64,000 bases of DNA from Acidobacteriota bacterium (GTDB taxonomy: Bacteria; Acidobacteriota; Blastocatellia; UBA7656), in assembly GCA_038040445.1 (NCBI GenBank), contig JBBPIG010000025.1, positions 29,301-93,300 on the forward strand. The letters are read 5' to 3'. How positions within the stretch are numbered: the stretch's first letter is position 1; each line of letters opens with the position of its first letter. The translations under genes and the position numbers were made by a program. Of this stretch, positions 1 to 38,133 are shown piece by piece. Under the pieces are notes generated by a model that was not told the DNA's origin, ran no database searches, and saw nothing but the letters and a program-made list of their open reading frames with translations.

Positions 1-234
1 CGTAGTCCGTGGTCCGTGGTCCGTGGTCCGTGGTCCGTGGTCCGTAGTCCGTAGTCCGTGGTCCGTAGTCCGTAGTCCGTGGTCCGTGGTCCGTGGTCCG
101 TGGTCCGTGGTCCGTAGTCCGTAGTAAGCGGTCAACAGTTGTCTACTGACCACAGACCACTGACCACCGAACTACGGACTACGGACCACGGACCACGGAC
201 TAAGGACTTCCGACCACTGACTACTGACAACTGA
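1..234. repeat. Heptamer array with inverted right arm (tract A, GTCCGTR unit)
   Basis: Positions 1-125 are almost entirely 7-bp units GTCCGTG or GTCCGTA in tandem. After a short spacer, positions 130-234 continue in 7-bp steps with the complementary orientation (TACGGAC, CACGGAC, then diverged CACTGAC and TACTGAC units). The two arms could pair into a long imperfect hairpin. The left end is cut by the window edge. The tract ends 16 bases before the start codon of the next gene. Units in the right arm are more diverged away from the centre of pairing. Confidence 0.9.
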
Positions 235-250
235 CGCTTCATCCCTTAAT

Positions 251-9328: not shown

Positions 9329-10354
9329 ATGGACGAGAATCTAGCGAAACTTCGTGAGCAGTTCATCGACGACTTGCGAGCTGTTTCAACCGCAGACGAT
9401 TTGAGCGCGCTGCGCGACAAGTATCTTGGCAGAAAGTCCGGACTCATCGCCGCCGAGAAGAAGCGCATCGGATCTCTCTCTTCCGCCGAGCGCGCGGAGT
9501 TCGGCCGCCAGGTGAATGAGATCAGTGCCGAGGTAGAAGCCGAGATCGGTCGCCTGAGCGAACAGTTTGCGGCACAAGCGGAAGCCGGCGCGCTCGAGCG
9601 TGACAGGATCGATATCACGTTGCCAGGCACGCGTCCCAGACAAGGGCACCTTCATCCGATCACACTTGTTCGCCAGAAGATCGAAGACGTCTTCGTCTCG
9701 ATGGGATATTCAGTGGAGGACGGACCCGAGATCGAAACGAGTTTCTATAACTTCGACGCGCTCAACATTCCGCCCGGCCACCCGGCGAGGGACTCGGCGG
9801 ACACGTTCTACGTTTCCGAAGACCTTGCGCTGCGAAGCCAGACTTCTACGGTTCAAATACACACGATGCAGCGGCAGAAACCACCGCTCCGAGTCATCGC
9901 GCCCGGACGAGTGTTCCGCCGCGACACGCCCGACCCGACGCACAATCCCATGTTCTTTCAGGTCGAAGGACTCAACGTGGATCGGCACATCACGCTTGCC
10001 GATCTCAAAGGAACTCTGCAAAAGTTTGTCGAAATGATGTTCGGAGTAAACGTACGGACTCGTTTTCGGCCATCATATTTCCCGTTCACCGAGCCCTCGG
10101 CTGAAGTTGATTTCAGTTGCTACGTATGCGGCGGGACAGGGTGCCGCATTTGCAAGGGCTCGGGCTGGATCGAGCTTGGCGGAAGCGGGATGGTTCACCC
10201 CAACGTGCTCGAGAAAGTCGGCATCGATCCGGAAGAGTTCTCGGGTTTCGCGTTCGGACTCGGCATCGACCGCATGGCCGGATTGATGTATGACATCGAT
10301 GATATCCGGCTGCTCTTCGAGAACGACATCAGGTTCCTCGAACAATTCGCGTGA
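9329..10354 (+). CDS. pheS: Phenylalanyl-tRNA synthetase alpha subunit
   Basis: A 341-residue class II aminoacyl-tRNA synthetase subunit that activates phenylalanine and charges tRNA-Phe as an alpha2beta2 complex with PheT. The N-terminal coiled-coil arm (to about residue 85) binds tRNA. Motif 2 is in [19 protein letters not shown], the [17 protein letters not shown] insertion is typical, and motif 3 is [13 protein letters not shown]. No Shine-Dalgarno sequence is visible; a hairpin lies directly upstream. It is unusual that pheT does not follow at once: a 575-residue gene is placed between them. Confidence 0.96.
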
Positions 10355-10357
10355 ACC

Positions 10358-10476
10358 CTGTTCCGGGTTCAGGGTTCAGGGTTCTGCATTTAGATGTACC
10401 ACCCCAGACCTGCGAGAACCAAGAACCAGGAACCCAGAACTCGAAACCCTGAACCCTGAACCCTGAACCCTGAACT
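10358..10476. repeat. Heptamer array with inverted right arm (tract B, GGTTCAG unit)
   Basis: Just after the pheS stop, whose TGA forms part of a CTGAACC-like unit, come GTTCCGG and GTTCAGG units. After a loop of about 30 bases the complementary units (CTGAACC, GGAACCC and similar) run in 7-bp steps to within six bases of the next start codon. The unit is the same as in tracts C and D. Confidence 0.9.
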
Positions 10477-10482
10477 AAATAG

Positions 10483-12210
10483 ATGCAGGCAAATTCAAAT
10501 CAACCCTTAGATAAGACCGTATTCATCCTCGGCGGCGCCGGTCTTGTCGGCACGCAGATTTGCTATCAAGTTGCCCAAGACCTCAAGCCCGGGAAGATCA
10601 TCATCGCCTCACTGTTTCAAAAAGAGGTTCGCGAGCTTGCTCACGAACTTCGCAAGGAATTCCCCTCGGTTCAGTTCATCGAGCTTTGGGGCAACATCTT
10701 CGTGCGATCCGAGTTCGCACGAGCTGATCGAGATGAGCTTCTAACCAGCGCCGTTCGCCGCCGGGGGTTGTATGACGACTTGTTCGGTCCGCTCGACGGC
10801 GCATACGAAAGATCAATGCTTGCCGCCTCGCTCCGCGAGCACGGCGCCGGCGTGTTGATCGATTGCGTCAACACGGCGTCCGGGATCAGCTATCAAGATG
10901 TATATACGAACTCGATCGAGGTTCGAAAGTCTCTCGACTTCATCGAGGAGCGCATCGAGGACCGCGACTTCAAACAGATCTCAGACAATCGCAAGCAAAT
11001 AGAGCGCACGTTTGAAACGCTGTTGCTGTCGCAATCAATCCCGCAGTTGATCCGTCACACCCAACTGATCTACCGCGCGATGGTGGAGGTGGGGACTCGA
11101 GTCTACGTCAAGGTCGGCACTACCGGCACGGGCGGAATGGGACTCAACATCCCCTACACTCACGGCGAAGACAAGCCCTCCGCGAAGCTGATGTCCAAGA
11201 CCGCGATTGGATTCGCCCACACTGGGTTGATGTTCCTGATGGCGCGCACACCGGGCGGGCCGATCGTCAAGGAGATCAAACCCGGGGCGATGATCGGCTA
11301 CAAGAAGGTCACTTTTCAGTCGCTCAAGCATCATCGTGACAACACACCGATACACGTTTATGCGCCCTGCACTCAGCGCTTCGACGGTGAGCTCGAGCTC
11401 TCACTGCCAAATCAGGAATTCACGAAGCTCGGCGAGCTCGAGATGGTCGGCGTCGACACAGGAGAGAACGGCTTCTTTGCCAGAGGCGAGTTCGAAGCGG
11501 TGACTTCGATCAACCAGATGGAGTTCGTAACTCCCGAAGAGATAGCCAGCAACGTCGTGCTCGAGATCAAAGGCAGCAACACCGGCGTGGACGTGATCGC
11601 GGCCATCGATTCGGCGATAATGGTTCCGAGCTACCGAGCCGGTTATCTGCGCGGCTCGGCGATCGAAGCGATGCGAAGACTCGAACACGAAACCAACTCG
11701 CATTCGATCGCGACCGGCGAGCTCGGTCCGCCTAAGCTCACCAAGCTTCTGTACGAGGTTCACCTGTTGAAGACCAAGTACCGGACGCTTCAAGCAGTCG
11801 TCGAACAGGGCGCGGAAGAAATCTCCGAGGCGCTGTGGCGATACGTCCAGCGCAACCATAATCTGCGAAACACGATCATCTCAATCGGCATCCCGATACT
11901 TCCACCCGAGGGCGATCGCCTGATTCGCGGACCGCGAATCAACGTGCCCGAGTACGCGGGTCAAACGAAGCTGCCGGTTACTGAACCCTCCATCAACGAA
12001 TGGGCCGAACGGGGTTGGCTCGACTTGAGGCCAAGGAACATGCGCCGCTGGCAGGAGCGTTTTAGCCGAATGCTGCGGTCAGCGCAAACGATTCACCGCC
12101 AGGGCTCGGCTGCGATTACAATGGAAGCATACCGGAGCGAGGAGATCAGAATCGGCGAAGTGGTGGGCTGGATTTTCAACAACGAGGAAGAGGGTTATCG
12201 GATCAAATGA
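10483..12210 (+). CDS. Uncharacterised Rossmann-fold protein inserted between pheS and pheT
   Basis: A 575-residue protein. The N-terminus carries a nucleotide-binding motif GGAGLVG (residues 17-23) after a beta strand (TVFILGG), as in SDR or saccharopine-dehydrogenase-like NAD(P) proteins. A second conserved-looking segment reads [19 protein letters not shown] near residue 210, and GYKKVTF near 270. No signal peptide or membrane segment is seen. The family was not recognised; oxidoreductase or NAD-dependent lyase activity would be a guess. No ribosome-binding site is visible after tract B. Its stop overlaps the pheT start by four bases (ATGA), so it is translationally coupled to pheT and expressed with it. 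GC and codon use match the neighbours. Confidence 0.8.
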
Positions 12211-14255: not shown

Positions 14256-14371
14256 CGGTTCAGGGTTCAGGGTTCAAGGTTCAGGGTTAGGCTGCTGCAC
14301 AACGTCTCGCAACCCCGAACCAGAAACCACGAACCAGAGACCCGGAACTCGGAACCCTGAACCCGGAACCG
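14256..14371. repeat. Heptamer array with inverted right arm (tract C, GGTTCAG unit)
   Basis: Directly after the pheT stop come five GGTTCAG-type units, a loop of about 25 bases, then diverged complementary units (CCGAACC, CGGAACC, CTGAACC). It ends 13 bases before the GTG of the next gene. Here, unlike the other tracts, a GGAGG site was kept between the array and the start. Confidence 0.9.
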
Positions 14372-34679: not shown

Positions 34680-35564
34680 GTGAGCGGACAGGCACTCGAA
34701 AGACTGTATATCGAAGGGATCGCTGAATCCTGGCTTAAGACGGCCGACGGCCGCGATACCAGCACGCTGGTCTACCGGCCCGCGGTGCTTATCGAGTGCG
34801 CGGTCAACTACCGCAGCCTCCGAGCGGGACTCAATCACTCCGAGGAGCGCAGCTACTCTGCCTGGCTTCCGGAGTCGGATCTCGCCATAGACTGGGATTC
34901 CCCCGCCGGCGAGTTTGATGAGCGATCACAACTTGCTTCGCAACCCGATCCGGCCATAAGCTATCGCCCGGGAAACTACCTGACAACCTGGTCCGACTTC
35001 GAACAGTGCGTTGCCGACTTGACAGGAAAGCTCGTGAGAGCCGAACGCCTTAGTGTTTATTTCAATCCGGTGTTTGGACTCTACTCCGCGCCGGGCGATC
35101 GGCTCGATGATTTTCTTGGCCGCGTCGCCGACGCCGCGCTGGGCCGCATTGAGCCCGAGCTTAAGAGGCTGCGCAACCGGTTCGAGTTGCAGCTCGAGCA
35201 AGTGCGCGAAGCTCAAGCATTGAAAGGCCAGCTTGCGGAGAACCTTAACCTTGAGAGCTTTATTTCAAACAAGCTGCATTTCTTCCAAAGCGAAAACAGA
35301 TTGGCTGGGATGTTCTCAACACTGGCAGGCGCCGTGTTCGGCTCTGCTGAGCCGCGATCTCAAGAGGAACCATACCGGGCCGATGAAGCGGAACTGCGCG
35401 AAGATCTCGAGCGCATCGAGCAAGAAGCCAGCGAAGCTCTACGCGCGCTATACGATGAATATCTGACGCTGGCCAATGAATACGATACCTTCGAAATCGG
35501 ACTCCAGCCCGACAACATACAGGTGATTCGCGAAGTTTTGGTATGGGTGCCGGTCCATGAATAG
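34680..35564 (+). CDS. Hypothetical protein with coiled-coil regions
   Basis: A 294-residue protein, GTG start, family not recognised. Residues 150-200 and 220-265 are charged helices that could form coiled coils (ELKRLRNRFELQLEQVREAQAL; EDLERIEQEASEALRALYDEY), and it ends in a short beta segment (IQVIREVLVWVPVHE). No signal peptide or membrane helix. The stop codon TAG lies inside the first unit of heptamer tract E. Confidence 0.65.
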   Translation: MSGQALERLYIEGIAESWLKTADGRDTSTLVYRPAVLIECAVNYRSLRAGLNHSEERSYSAWLPESDLAIDWDSPAGEFDERSQLASQPDPAISYRPGNYLTTWSDFEQCVADLTGKLVRAERLSVYFNPVFGLYSAPGDRLDDFLGRVADAALGRIEPELKRLRNRFELQLEQVREAQALKGQLAENLNLESFISNKLHFFQSENRLAGMFSTLAGAVFGSAEPRSQEEPYRADEAELREDLERIEQEASEALRALYDEYLTLANEYDTFEIGLQPDNIQVIREVLVWVPVHE

Positions 35565-35672
35565 AGCAAAGAGCAAAGAGCAAAGGGCAAAGGGCAACAA
35601 AGCAAGTGGAGCGGATTTGCTGTCTGCTTGTTGCCCTTTCCGCTTTGCTCTTTGCTCTTCGCCCTTTGCGTT
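35562..35672. repeat. Heptamer array with inverted right arm (tract E, AGAGCAA unit)
   Basis: From the stop codon of the preceding gene: AGAGCAA repeated three times, then AGGGCAA twice, a loop of about 40 bases, then TTGCCCT, TTGCTCT and TTGCTCT units in the complementary orientation. The period and arm design equal tracts A-D although the unit sequence is unrelated. It ends about 20 bases before the NAD kinase start. Confidence 0.9.
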
Positions 35673-35691
35673 TTGTGTGTGACTTATTCTT

Positions 35692-36561
35692 ATGGCCCAG
35701 CAACCACCAGCGCGAATCGGTATCATCACCAAGCCAAACGAACCGCGCGCGGCGGAGCTTGCGGCGCGCATCGCGGAATGGGCGGCTGATCACGAAATCA
35801 ACCTGTTCGTAAACGACCGCGTTAAAGATTTGCTGCCCGGCACCTTCTCCGCTTCGGCAAGAGAGATCGCCGACAACTGCGATGTGCTGATCGTGCTGGG
35901 AGGAGACGGCACGATGATCGCGACAGCACGCCTCGTAGGGGGACGCGGGACACCAGTCCTTGGCATCAACCTCGGGACGCTTGGTTACCTGACGGAGTTC
36001 GCTATCGACGAGGCGATCCCGGCGCTGGAGTTCGTGGTTCGCGGTGAGTACGAGATCGTCCAGCGAATGATGCTCGACTGGCGAGTGCTTCGCGATGGCG
36101 ACCAGGTGGGCGCGGGCACGGCGCTCAATGACGTCGTCGTCAACAAATCAGCGCTGGCCCGGATCATAGACATTGACTGCTGGGTTGGCGCCCACTATGT
36201 CACCGGATACCGGTCGGATGGCCTGATCATCGCGACGCCCACCGGCTCGACCGCCTACAACCTCGCCGCCGGCGGACCGATCATCTTTCCGAGCGCTGAA
36301 GCGATTTCCATCTGTCCGATTTGTCCTCACACCCTCACGAATCGGCCTCTGGTGCTTCCCTTCAACGTCGATATCAAGCTCCAGATGAACACGCGCGAGC
36401 AGGAGGTCATGCTGACCGCCGACGGCCAGACGGGTCTGCCGTTGATGGCCGGCGATAGAGTCGAGATACGACGAAGCGCGAAGACCTTCAACACAGTGTG
36501 CGCGAAAGACCGCGATTACTTCGAGATCCTGCGAAGCAAACTGAAATGGAGCGGCAGGTAG
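35692..36561 (+). CDS. nadK: NAD kinase
   Basis: A 289-residue NAD(+) kinase that makes NADP. The diacylglycerol-kinase-type motif GGDGTMIATAR is at about residue 70, NLGTLGYLTEF follows, and the second conserved motif is TPTGSTAYNLAAGGPI. Length and order are normal. No Shine-Dalgarno sequence lies before the ATG; tract E is directly upstream. Confidence 0.95.
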   Translation: MAQQPPARIGIITKPNEPRAAELAARIAEWAADHEINLFVNDRVKDLLPGTFSASAREIADNCDVLIVLGGDGTMIATARLVGGRGTPVLGINLGTLGYLTEFAIDEAIPALEFVVRGEYEIVQRMMLDWRVLRDGDQVGAGTALNDVVVNKSALARIIDIDCWVGAHYVTGYRSDGLIIATPTGSTAYNLAAGGPIIFPSAEAISICPICPHTLTNRPLVLPFNVDIKLQMNTREQEVMLTADGQTGLPLMAGDRVEIRRSAKTFNTVCAKDRDYFEILRSKLKWSGR

Positions 36562-37491: not shown

Positions 37492-37902
37492 ATGTCCACA
37501 GAAGTCCTGGAACACTCAGGTCTGGTAATTGAAGAGACTCCGGCGGAGGCGATGAATCTTCCCGAGCTGGACACGTTCGGGTACAAGTACCAAGGCAAAG
37601 AGATAAACATATCGTTCACCTGTCCGGAATTCACGGCGATCTGCCCGTTCTCGGACTTCCCCGATTTCGCAACGATCAAGATCGACTACGTACCCGCTGA
37701 GCTTTGCGTCGAGTTGAAGTCGCTCAAGCTCTACATAAACGCGTTCAGGCCGGTGAAGATATTTCACGAACACGTCGTCAATCGGATCCTCGAAGACTTT
37801 GTGCGTGCCTGCGATCCGGTGGCCGTCGATATCGAAGGCGACTTCCACATCCGAGGCAATATCAAGACTGTCATCCGCGCTTCGTATCGGCGAGAGAAAT
37901 AG
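37492..37902 (+). CDS. queF: NADPH-dependent preQ0 reductase QueF
   Basis: A 136-residue QueF of the short, unimodular type. It reduces the nitrile preQ0 to preQ1 in queuosine synthesis. The nucleophile is Cys51 in [13 protein letters not shown], with the conserved Asp58; the motif ELKSLKLY follows at 74-81 and FHEHVVNRI at about 90-98. The usual TGQPDF is replaced by SDFPDF. AAGGAG lies seven bases before the ATG. The stop codon abuts heptamer tract D. No other queuosine gene is nearby. Confidence 0.94.
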
Positions 37903-38133
37903 TTCGGGGTTCGGGGTTCAGGGTTCAGGGTTCGGGGTCCAGGGTTCGGGGTTCAGGGTTCGGGGTCCAGGGTTCAGGGTTCGGGGTTCGGTTCAGGCTT
38001 AGGTGCCGGACGCTGATTGTTACGGCAAATAGGCAATCTAAGTAATTAACGTTCAACCGGGAACCTCAAACTCCGAACCCTGAACCCCGAACTCTGAACC
38101 CCGAACCCTGAACTCTGAACCCCGAACCCCGAG
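37903..38133. repeat. Heptamer array with inverted right arm (tract D, GGTTCAG/GGTTCGG unit)
   Basis: A left arm of about 13 units alternating GGTTCAG, GGTTCGG and GGTCCAG begins at the queF stop. A loop of about 65 AT-richer bases (37998-38060) follows, then about ten complementary units (CTGAACC, CCGAACC) end 7 bases before the next ATG. It is the longest complete tract in the window. Confidence 0.92.

Follow-up and report, generated by a model that had tools for sequence, protein, structure and literature searches.

Why should the stop codon of one gene and the start codon of the next be separated by a hairpin built of tandem heptamers, and how can unrelated heptamers come to share this architecture within a single stretch of DNA? 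This is the question raised by tract E in the window, by which we mean the whole 64,000-nucleotide stretch that was analysed, from the genome of a soil bacterium of the Acidobacteriota (Table 1). The original prediction described tract E as an inverted heptamer array with the stop codon inside its first unit, and this architecture is confirmed: the first heptamer takes in two bases of the TAG stop (35562-35564) of the upstream ORF, and the inverted arm ends at about 35675, 16 bp upstream of the nadK ATG. The RNA fold of the tract reaches -62.7 kcal/mol, compared with -39.5 +/- 4.0 kcal/mol for dinucleotide shuffles (z = -5.8), and 0 of 200 shuffles folded equally well. Tract E itself has a short loop with no PF05635 ORF or remnant inside, and it is located between protein genes, outside 23S rRNA. 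Period, arms, loop and placement had further been said to be identical among the tracts; the arms and loops are alike but not identical, the gap between palindrome arms having a median of 38 bp and a 10-90% range of 14-82 bp.

Table 1. Heptamer tracts and flanking genes, in window coordinates
Feature	Position	Strand	Remarks
GTCCGTR-family palindromic heptamer array	1..235		truncated at window edge
GGTTCAG-family palindromic heptamer array	10360..10475		between pheS (9329-10354) and gene at 10483
GGTTCAG-family palindromic heptamer array	14257..14370		immediately 3' of pheT stop
Upstream gene	34680..35564	+	294 aa, no Pfam match; TAG stop overlaps first heptamer
Tract E, G-rich 5' arm	35563..35605	+	AGAGCAA x3, AGGGCAA x2, then non-periodic inner part CAAAGCAAG
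Tract E, unique inner part and loop	35606..35630	+	
Tract E, C-rich 3' arm	35631..35675	+	same units as reverse complement (TTGCCCTTTCCGCTTTGCTCTTTGCTCTTCGCCCTTTGCG)
Downstream gene, NAD kinase (nadK)	35692..36561	+	PF01513, PF20143
GGTTCRG-family palindromic heptamer array	37902..38132		on stop codon of QueF-like gene; sister's orthologous site has one too

The closest NadK, with 86% identity, is that of MAG Chersky_418, which assigns the genome to Blastocatellia. To place tract E among its kind, 1.504 Mb of the genome under study (G000; 6.75 Mb in 72 contigs), chosen blind to repeats, plus some targeted stretches, were screened for inverted arrays and the units were classified; an array was counted at a score of at least 14, and an inverted partner was sought within 200 bp. 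Period 7 yielded 122 arrays, against 0, 0, 1, 6, 4, 1, 3, 6 and 2 arrays for periods 4, 5, 6, 8, 9, 10, 11, 12 and 13, respectively. An inverted partner accompanied 77 of the 122 period-7 arrays and only 1 array of all other periods combined, where about 12% of random unit pairs in this genome would score as partners by chance. Tract E is thus not unique, its unit is present in multiple copies, and a 7-bp period is indeed far commoner than any other, as had been anticipated. Period 7 also prevails in G016 (another family; 24 arrays) and in G004 (same family; 18 arrays), each read blind over 400 kb, with periods other than multiples of 7 giving at most 3 arrays; the unit vocabularies of these two genomes differ in part. 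The arrays are mostly intergenic, only 17 of the 122 having their midpoint in a called gene. The 1.504 Mb contain 54 palindromes, from which the whole genome can be extrapolated to hold perhaps 200 or more. Scaffold gaps (100 N) occur within or beside heptamer arrays at G000:C1:30038-30455 and C4:77571-80255, so that short-read genomes probably represent the longest arrays incompletely. A glycan-biosynthesis-like region (G000:C4:77571-114629) carries unusually many ACGACGG/ACCGNNG arrays, some of them within called genes.

The palindromes of this genome fall into at least 11 unit clusters (11 at a lenient threshold), and as we read them the units mix fixed and free positions: AAGNGCN for tract E, and GAACNCN, GACNACN and GANGATN elsewhere. 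AAGNGCN has 40 forward and 20 reverse four-unit matches in G000, in many unrelated spacers, and is found in 4 of 57 other genomes, namely the sister species G001 (same genus) and three from a different family of the class (G008, G016, G053); it was not found in G002-G006, which represent other genera of the family to which G000 belongs. The idea that the unit was generated locally from the end of the adjoining gene was not borne out and is rejected, because AAGNGCN recurs across unrelated spacers and also outside the family of G000. Judged by this distribution, the unit of tract E is a recurring word, patchily distributed, that is neither derived from the gene end nor arbitrary at each site. 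It had also been argued that structure and period are kept and sequence is not; this largely holds at a given site, as orthologous comparisons of tract E and actF/SCO1 show below, but the recurrence of AAGNGCN speaks against units that are free and made locally.

Two further regularities concern orientation and placement. Whichever strand is read, the G-rich arm leads in 61 of 66 informative palindromes of G000, 13 of 15 of G016 and 9 of 9 of G004, or 83 of 90 across the three genomes; the five C-first exceptions in G000 come from a single unit family, AAATGGA, and this family is C-first in G016 too. With gene calls from a simple gene caller, the 48 spacer palindromes of G000 lie in 36 tandem, 9 convergent and 3 divergent spacers (8.5-10.5 divergent expected), and in tandem spacers they begin a median of 6 nt downstream of the stop and end 24.5 nt upstream of the next start. 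In contig C4 of G004, several palindromes are clustered, one of them directly before an apparent rpsS (named by eye).

The most informative arrays are those that enclose a gene. PF05635 denotes a four-helix-bundle protein known as S23 or the 23S rRNA intervening-sequence protein, and G000 has six matches to it, five of them above the cut-off; all five of these genes are flanked on both sides by inverted heptamer arms, as assessed by eye. An automatic criterion, combining inverted complementarity of the flanks with a short-period array, was passed by 4 of the 6 matches and by 6 of 812 control genes (p = 1.7e-7), a value that, like the other S23 p-value given here, is descriptive, since the criterion was fixed once the first loci were known; an earlier, stricter count had found both-side arms in 4 of 817 other G000 genes. 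One of the two misses fell just short of the threshold (inv 15.5), and the other lies below the Pfam cut-off and has period-9 repeats. At L275, a PF05635 gene below the cut-off has a period-9 array (GGACCTATT) upstream and a possible inverted partner downstream. Elsewhere, S23 genes are flanked by arms of AGAAGGC in G001 and GATGAAC in G004. The unit of tract E itself, AAGNGCN, flanks an S23 pseudogene in G008 (L154), and the coordinates place it on both sides of an S23 gene in G016 as well (contig C24; arrays at 117131-157 and 117584-610, gene at 117203-117517). The Blastocatellia genomes G003, G011, G014, G018 and G020 gave no S23 match.

The association extends beyond Acidobacteriota. S23 relatives on plasmids come nearly all from filamentous cyanobacteria, a group known for heptanucleotide repeats. 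At these cyanobacterial loci, 16 of 24 passed, compared with 0 of 63 neighbouring genes (p = 6e-12), where the count includes near-duplicate plasmid loci and the effective n is somewhat lower; the strict test was failed by the other 8 of the 24 and by an Azospirillum locus, which has no arms at the array level. One S23 locus with arms was found in Gemmatimonadota, and no S23 relatives were found in phage records and viral contigs. The cyanobacterial arrays have a period of 7, 8 or 9, mostly equal on both sides, and are G-rich upstream and C-rich downstream of the gene; in two Nostoc plasmid stretches of 40 kb each, the only period 7-9 arrays found were those adjoining the S23 gene. Hence S23 genes are specifically bracketed by G-first arms in Acidobacteriota and Cyanobacteriota, and at one locus in Gemmatimonadota. 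Among cyanobacterial S23 groups, one (L276-L291) has period 7 at 7 of its 8 loci and another (L295-L302) has period 8 or 9 at 10 of 13, and array period seems to track S23 subfamily, on raw locus counts that ignore relatedness. At L296, L297 and L302, on cyanobacterial plasmids, S23 genes sit within gene clusters: one separates the two ribonucleotide reductase genes, another lies between cas6 and cas4, and a third has cas10 on one side and a Cmr3-family gene on the other. At L273, an AAAATTG array plus S23 gene occurs twice in succession, one copy truncated and the other full-length, ahead of one 3' arm, which looks like a duplication inside an element.

Comparison with the sister species, at about 80% DNA identity, shows how such sites change. 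At the tract E site, G001 has kept TAGAGCAAGAGG... and has a strong irregular hairpin (z = -3.8), with the array absent; at the QueF site (37902), both species have a GGTTCAG palindrome; and at the actF/SCO1 site the unit is AAAAGGC in G000 and AGAAGGC in G001. Between actC and actD, G000 has an array arm, a complete 129-aa gene (PF05635, E = 1e-25) and an inverted arm, and G001 has a short spacer alone, with neither arms nor gene. Presence and absence of such an arm-S23-arm block is the pattern typical of an inserted element, seen here at one site, where the two spacers are too diverged for the ends of the block to be fixed and a target-site duplication is not definable. Between actD and actE, G001 has GAGGATA arms around a truncated S23 gene remnant (MPRIESFRDLDVYQL...), and the same site in G000 (L032:16029-16124) carries a different hairpin, a period-8 palindrome (CAAAGACG/CAAAGACA). 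ActD of G000 (L032:15463-16029 = G000:C1:35463-36029) starts with MMRSSILDPRSSVPRLYG, and its N-terminus appears to be the translated 3' arm of a GAGGATA array. The sisters thus differ at orthologous sites in three ways, namely by the whole block, by a gene remnant inside kept arms, and by unit sequence. In view of the actC/actD block and of the same arms bracketing S23 genes, the original suggestion of a mechanism that generates arrays, rather than a mobile sequence, is doubtful.

On these grounds we lean, with modest confidence, towards the reading that tract E belongs, as a copy without a gene, to a dispersed family of S23/IVS-like hairpin elements, whose arms turn over by slippage. Such an element would have arms of inverted short-period tandem arrays (period 7 in G000; 7, 8 or 9 in cyanobacteria) that, in its gene-bearing form, enclose an S23 or four-helix-bundle ORF (PF05635), and its plan would be that of the intervening sequence (IVS) of 23S rRNA, moved to the spacers of protein genes. 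The block would spread as a mobile element, in which the S23 protein would play a role. Most gene-less tracts would have lost the S23 ORF or be non-autonomous copies; the gene may have been lost from an element, or else captured by a hairpin. The arms would pair in the transcript and, like those of an IVS, may be cleaved by RNase III, which would make an element tolerable in the gap from one gene's stop codon to the start codon of the following gene. Slippage would extend and rewrite the arms while hairpin, period and polarity stay, and unrelated units would thereby come to occupy one architecture. Several points count against the element reading: most tracts are short-looped with no trace of an S23 gene; about six PF05635 matches in G000 stand against dozens of arrays per 1.5 Mb; the S23 loci named above fall short of the automatic criterion; and, besides the missing target-site duplication, neither excision nor transposition was observed. 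A search of gene-less loops in G000 for S23 remnants gave 2 weak tblastn hits near tracts, where 1 was expected, and the sharing of unit families between S23 arms and gene-less tracts is weakly above chance, a random heptamer matching at 6 of 7 positions in 48% of trials. S23 genes could also merely lodge in hairpins of other origin.

Local mutation on its own, with neither an element nor dedicated machinery, is an unlikely alternative: a short repeat near the stop would slip with a 7-bp bias, and a second arm would be made by template switching or fold-back copying. The strong bias to period 7 and the change of units at orthologous sites would both follow, and heptamer-biased slippage has been proposed earlier, at least as cited in PMC4692102. 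Unit order is also slightly mirrored between the arms (36 of 57 tracts, Wilcoxon p = 0.015). However, this mirroring is weak, and fold-back copying is therefore not the main source of the arms; strong arm-to-arm copying is rejected on the weak signal of unit-order permutations and would be a minor process at best. Local mutation also fits poorly with one degenerate unit recurring across unrelated spacers and genomes of other families, with the association with S23 genes, and with a fixed polarity (G-first 83:7), where fold-back would yield both orders.

The tracts might instead be cis-regulatory RNA hairpins (terminators, protectors of mRNA 3' ends or operon-processing sites) that are selected for structure alone. 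The position of tracts on or near the stops of tandem genes, their scarcity between divergent genes and their strong predicted folding agree with such a role, as do the hairpin kept without an array at the tract E site of the sister, the arrays between ribosomal genes in G004 and the transcription of Xanthomonas heptamer arrays (PMC4692102). Nevertheless, we judge it improbable: the sister can be tract-free at an orthologous spacer (actC/actD), whole genes and truncated pseudogenes are enclosed by the same hairpins, and period 7, the fixed polarity and the S23 association are left unexplained.

REP/BIME-like elements mobilised by RAYT (the Y1 REP transposase) are a very improbable source: dispersed intergenic palindromes and the presence of PF01797 genes in 17 of 19 genomes (7 matches in G000) would suit them, but in the stretches sampled the PF01797 (Y1_Tnp) genes are 5-26 kb away from the closest array and are not bracketed by arrays, on which ground RAYT-driven spread is rejected, and the units vary freely, with no conserved head of the GTAG/CGTC type noticed by eye. 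A reverse transcriptase that carries a short RNA template might also have added the heptamers, in the manner of telomerase or of a retroelement. This would account for tandem heptamers in which some positions are fixed and others free, and for the resemblance of PF05635 proteins to Avd, the partner of the reverse transcriptase in DGRs (PMC10053308), but it is rejected and has next to no likelihood, given that 7 of 19 genomes, the array-rich sister G001 among them, gave no RVT_1 match, and given the inverted pair of arms and the many unit families.

Returning to the S23/IVS-like hairpin element, its nearest counterpart is the 23S rRNA IVS with an S23p/PF05635 ORF (Coxiella, Leptospira; PMC4990558), likewise a hairpin bounded by inverted repeats in which the four-helix-bundle ORF is optional. 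In Coxiella, tandem heptamers of varying number directly precede the S23 ORF of the IVS, and RNase III excises the IVS (PMC4990558). Both the IVS (PMC4990558) and the G000 elements are sporadic, and the IVS is tolerated within a transcript, as the G000 elements would be; unlike the IVS, the G000 elements lie in spacers of protein genes, number dozens per 1.5 Mb, have tandem arrays as both arms and mostly lack an ORF.

Heptamer arrays as such are of a known kind, of which those of G000 are a variant. The GGGANTN arrays of Xanthomonas and GGGGA(C/T)T arrays of Nostoc (Rehm et al. 2015, PMC4692102) likewise have period 7, free positions and an intergenic location near stops, are depleted between divergent genes and often form a convergent G-first inverted pair; the polarity of the convergent GGGAATC pairs of Xanthomonas appears likewise G-first, as we read "convergent" in Rehm et al. 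(PMC4692102). These arrays have one unit type per genome and were read as G-quadruplex formers (PMC4692102), in contrast to the at least 11 unit clusters of G000, many of them without GGG runs; the tract E unit AGAGCAA, like AAAATTG, GATGCGT and others, has no GGG run of the kind that marks a G-quadruplex-capable unit. The S23 association seen here is unmentioned in PMC4692102. In the stem-loops of the Nostoc tRNA-Leu intron P6b (PMC4476775), unrelated heptanucleotide classes (TDNGATT, NNTGAGT) form the same hairpin and replace each other at one site in length steps of 7; these, unlike the tracts described here, are confined to a single intron position and have no gene between the arms (PMC4476775). 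The TAACTGA repeats of Beggiatoaceae (PMC4679880) are likewise dispersed intergenic tandem heptamers of variable number, but they are direct repeats of a single unit with almost no inverted pairs. REP/BIME sequences, too, are dispersed intergenic palindromes; the G000 tracts differ in having tandem-array arms and in that RAYT genes are not bracketed by arrays. The closest solved structure to the S23 protein is XCC0516 of Xanthomonas, a genus with abundant heptamer arrays. XCC0516 goes unmentioned in the main text of Rehm et al. (PMC4692102), and we found no report of a link between arrays and S23 genes in the literature searched, which was mostly open-access and excluded preprints; as far as can be seen, the association is new. 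PF05635 proteins are reported to be homologous to Avd, the reverse transcriptase partner in DGRs (PMC10053308).

A wider proposal can be made only tentatively, and we hold it to be possible rather than probable. S23 or four-helix-bundle (Avd-like) proteins may drive widespread, tiny mobile hairpin elements, in 23S rRNA as well as in the spacers of protein genes, by reading the structure, period and G-first polarity of the arms and not their bases; the long-unexplained heptamer repeats scattered through the genomes of cyanobacteria, Acidobacteriota and perhaps Xanthomonas may be gene-less copies of such elements. Heptamer arrays have been known for decades without a function or driver, and S23/four-helix-bundle proteins have been without a role. 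These two puzzles are joined here by a testable genomic rule, that inverted arrays of 7-9 bp surround S23 genes with the G-rich arm leading, and this rule supplies the arrays with a candidate driver and the S23 protein with a candidate substrate, and offers a reason for the presence of S23 genes inside operons and defence loci.
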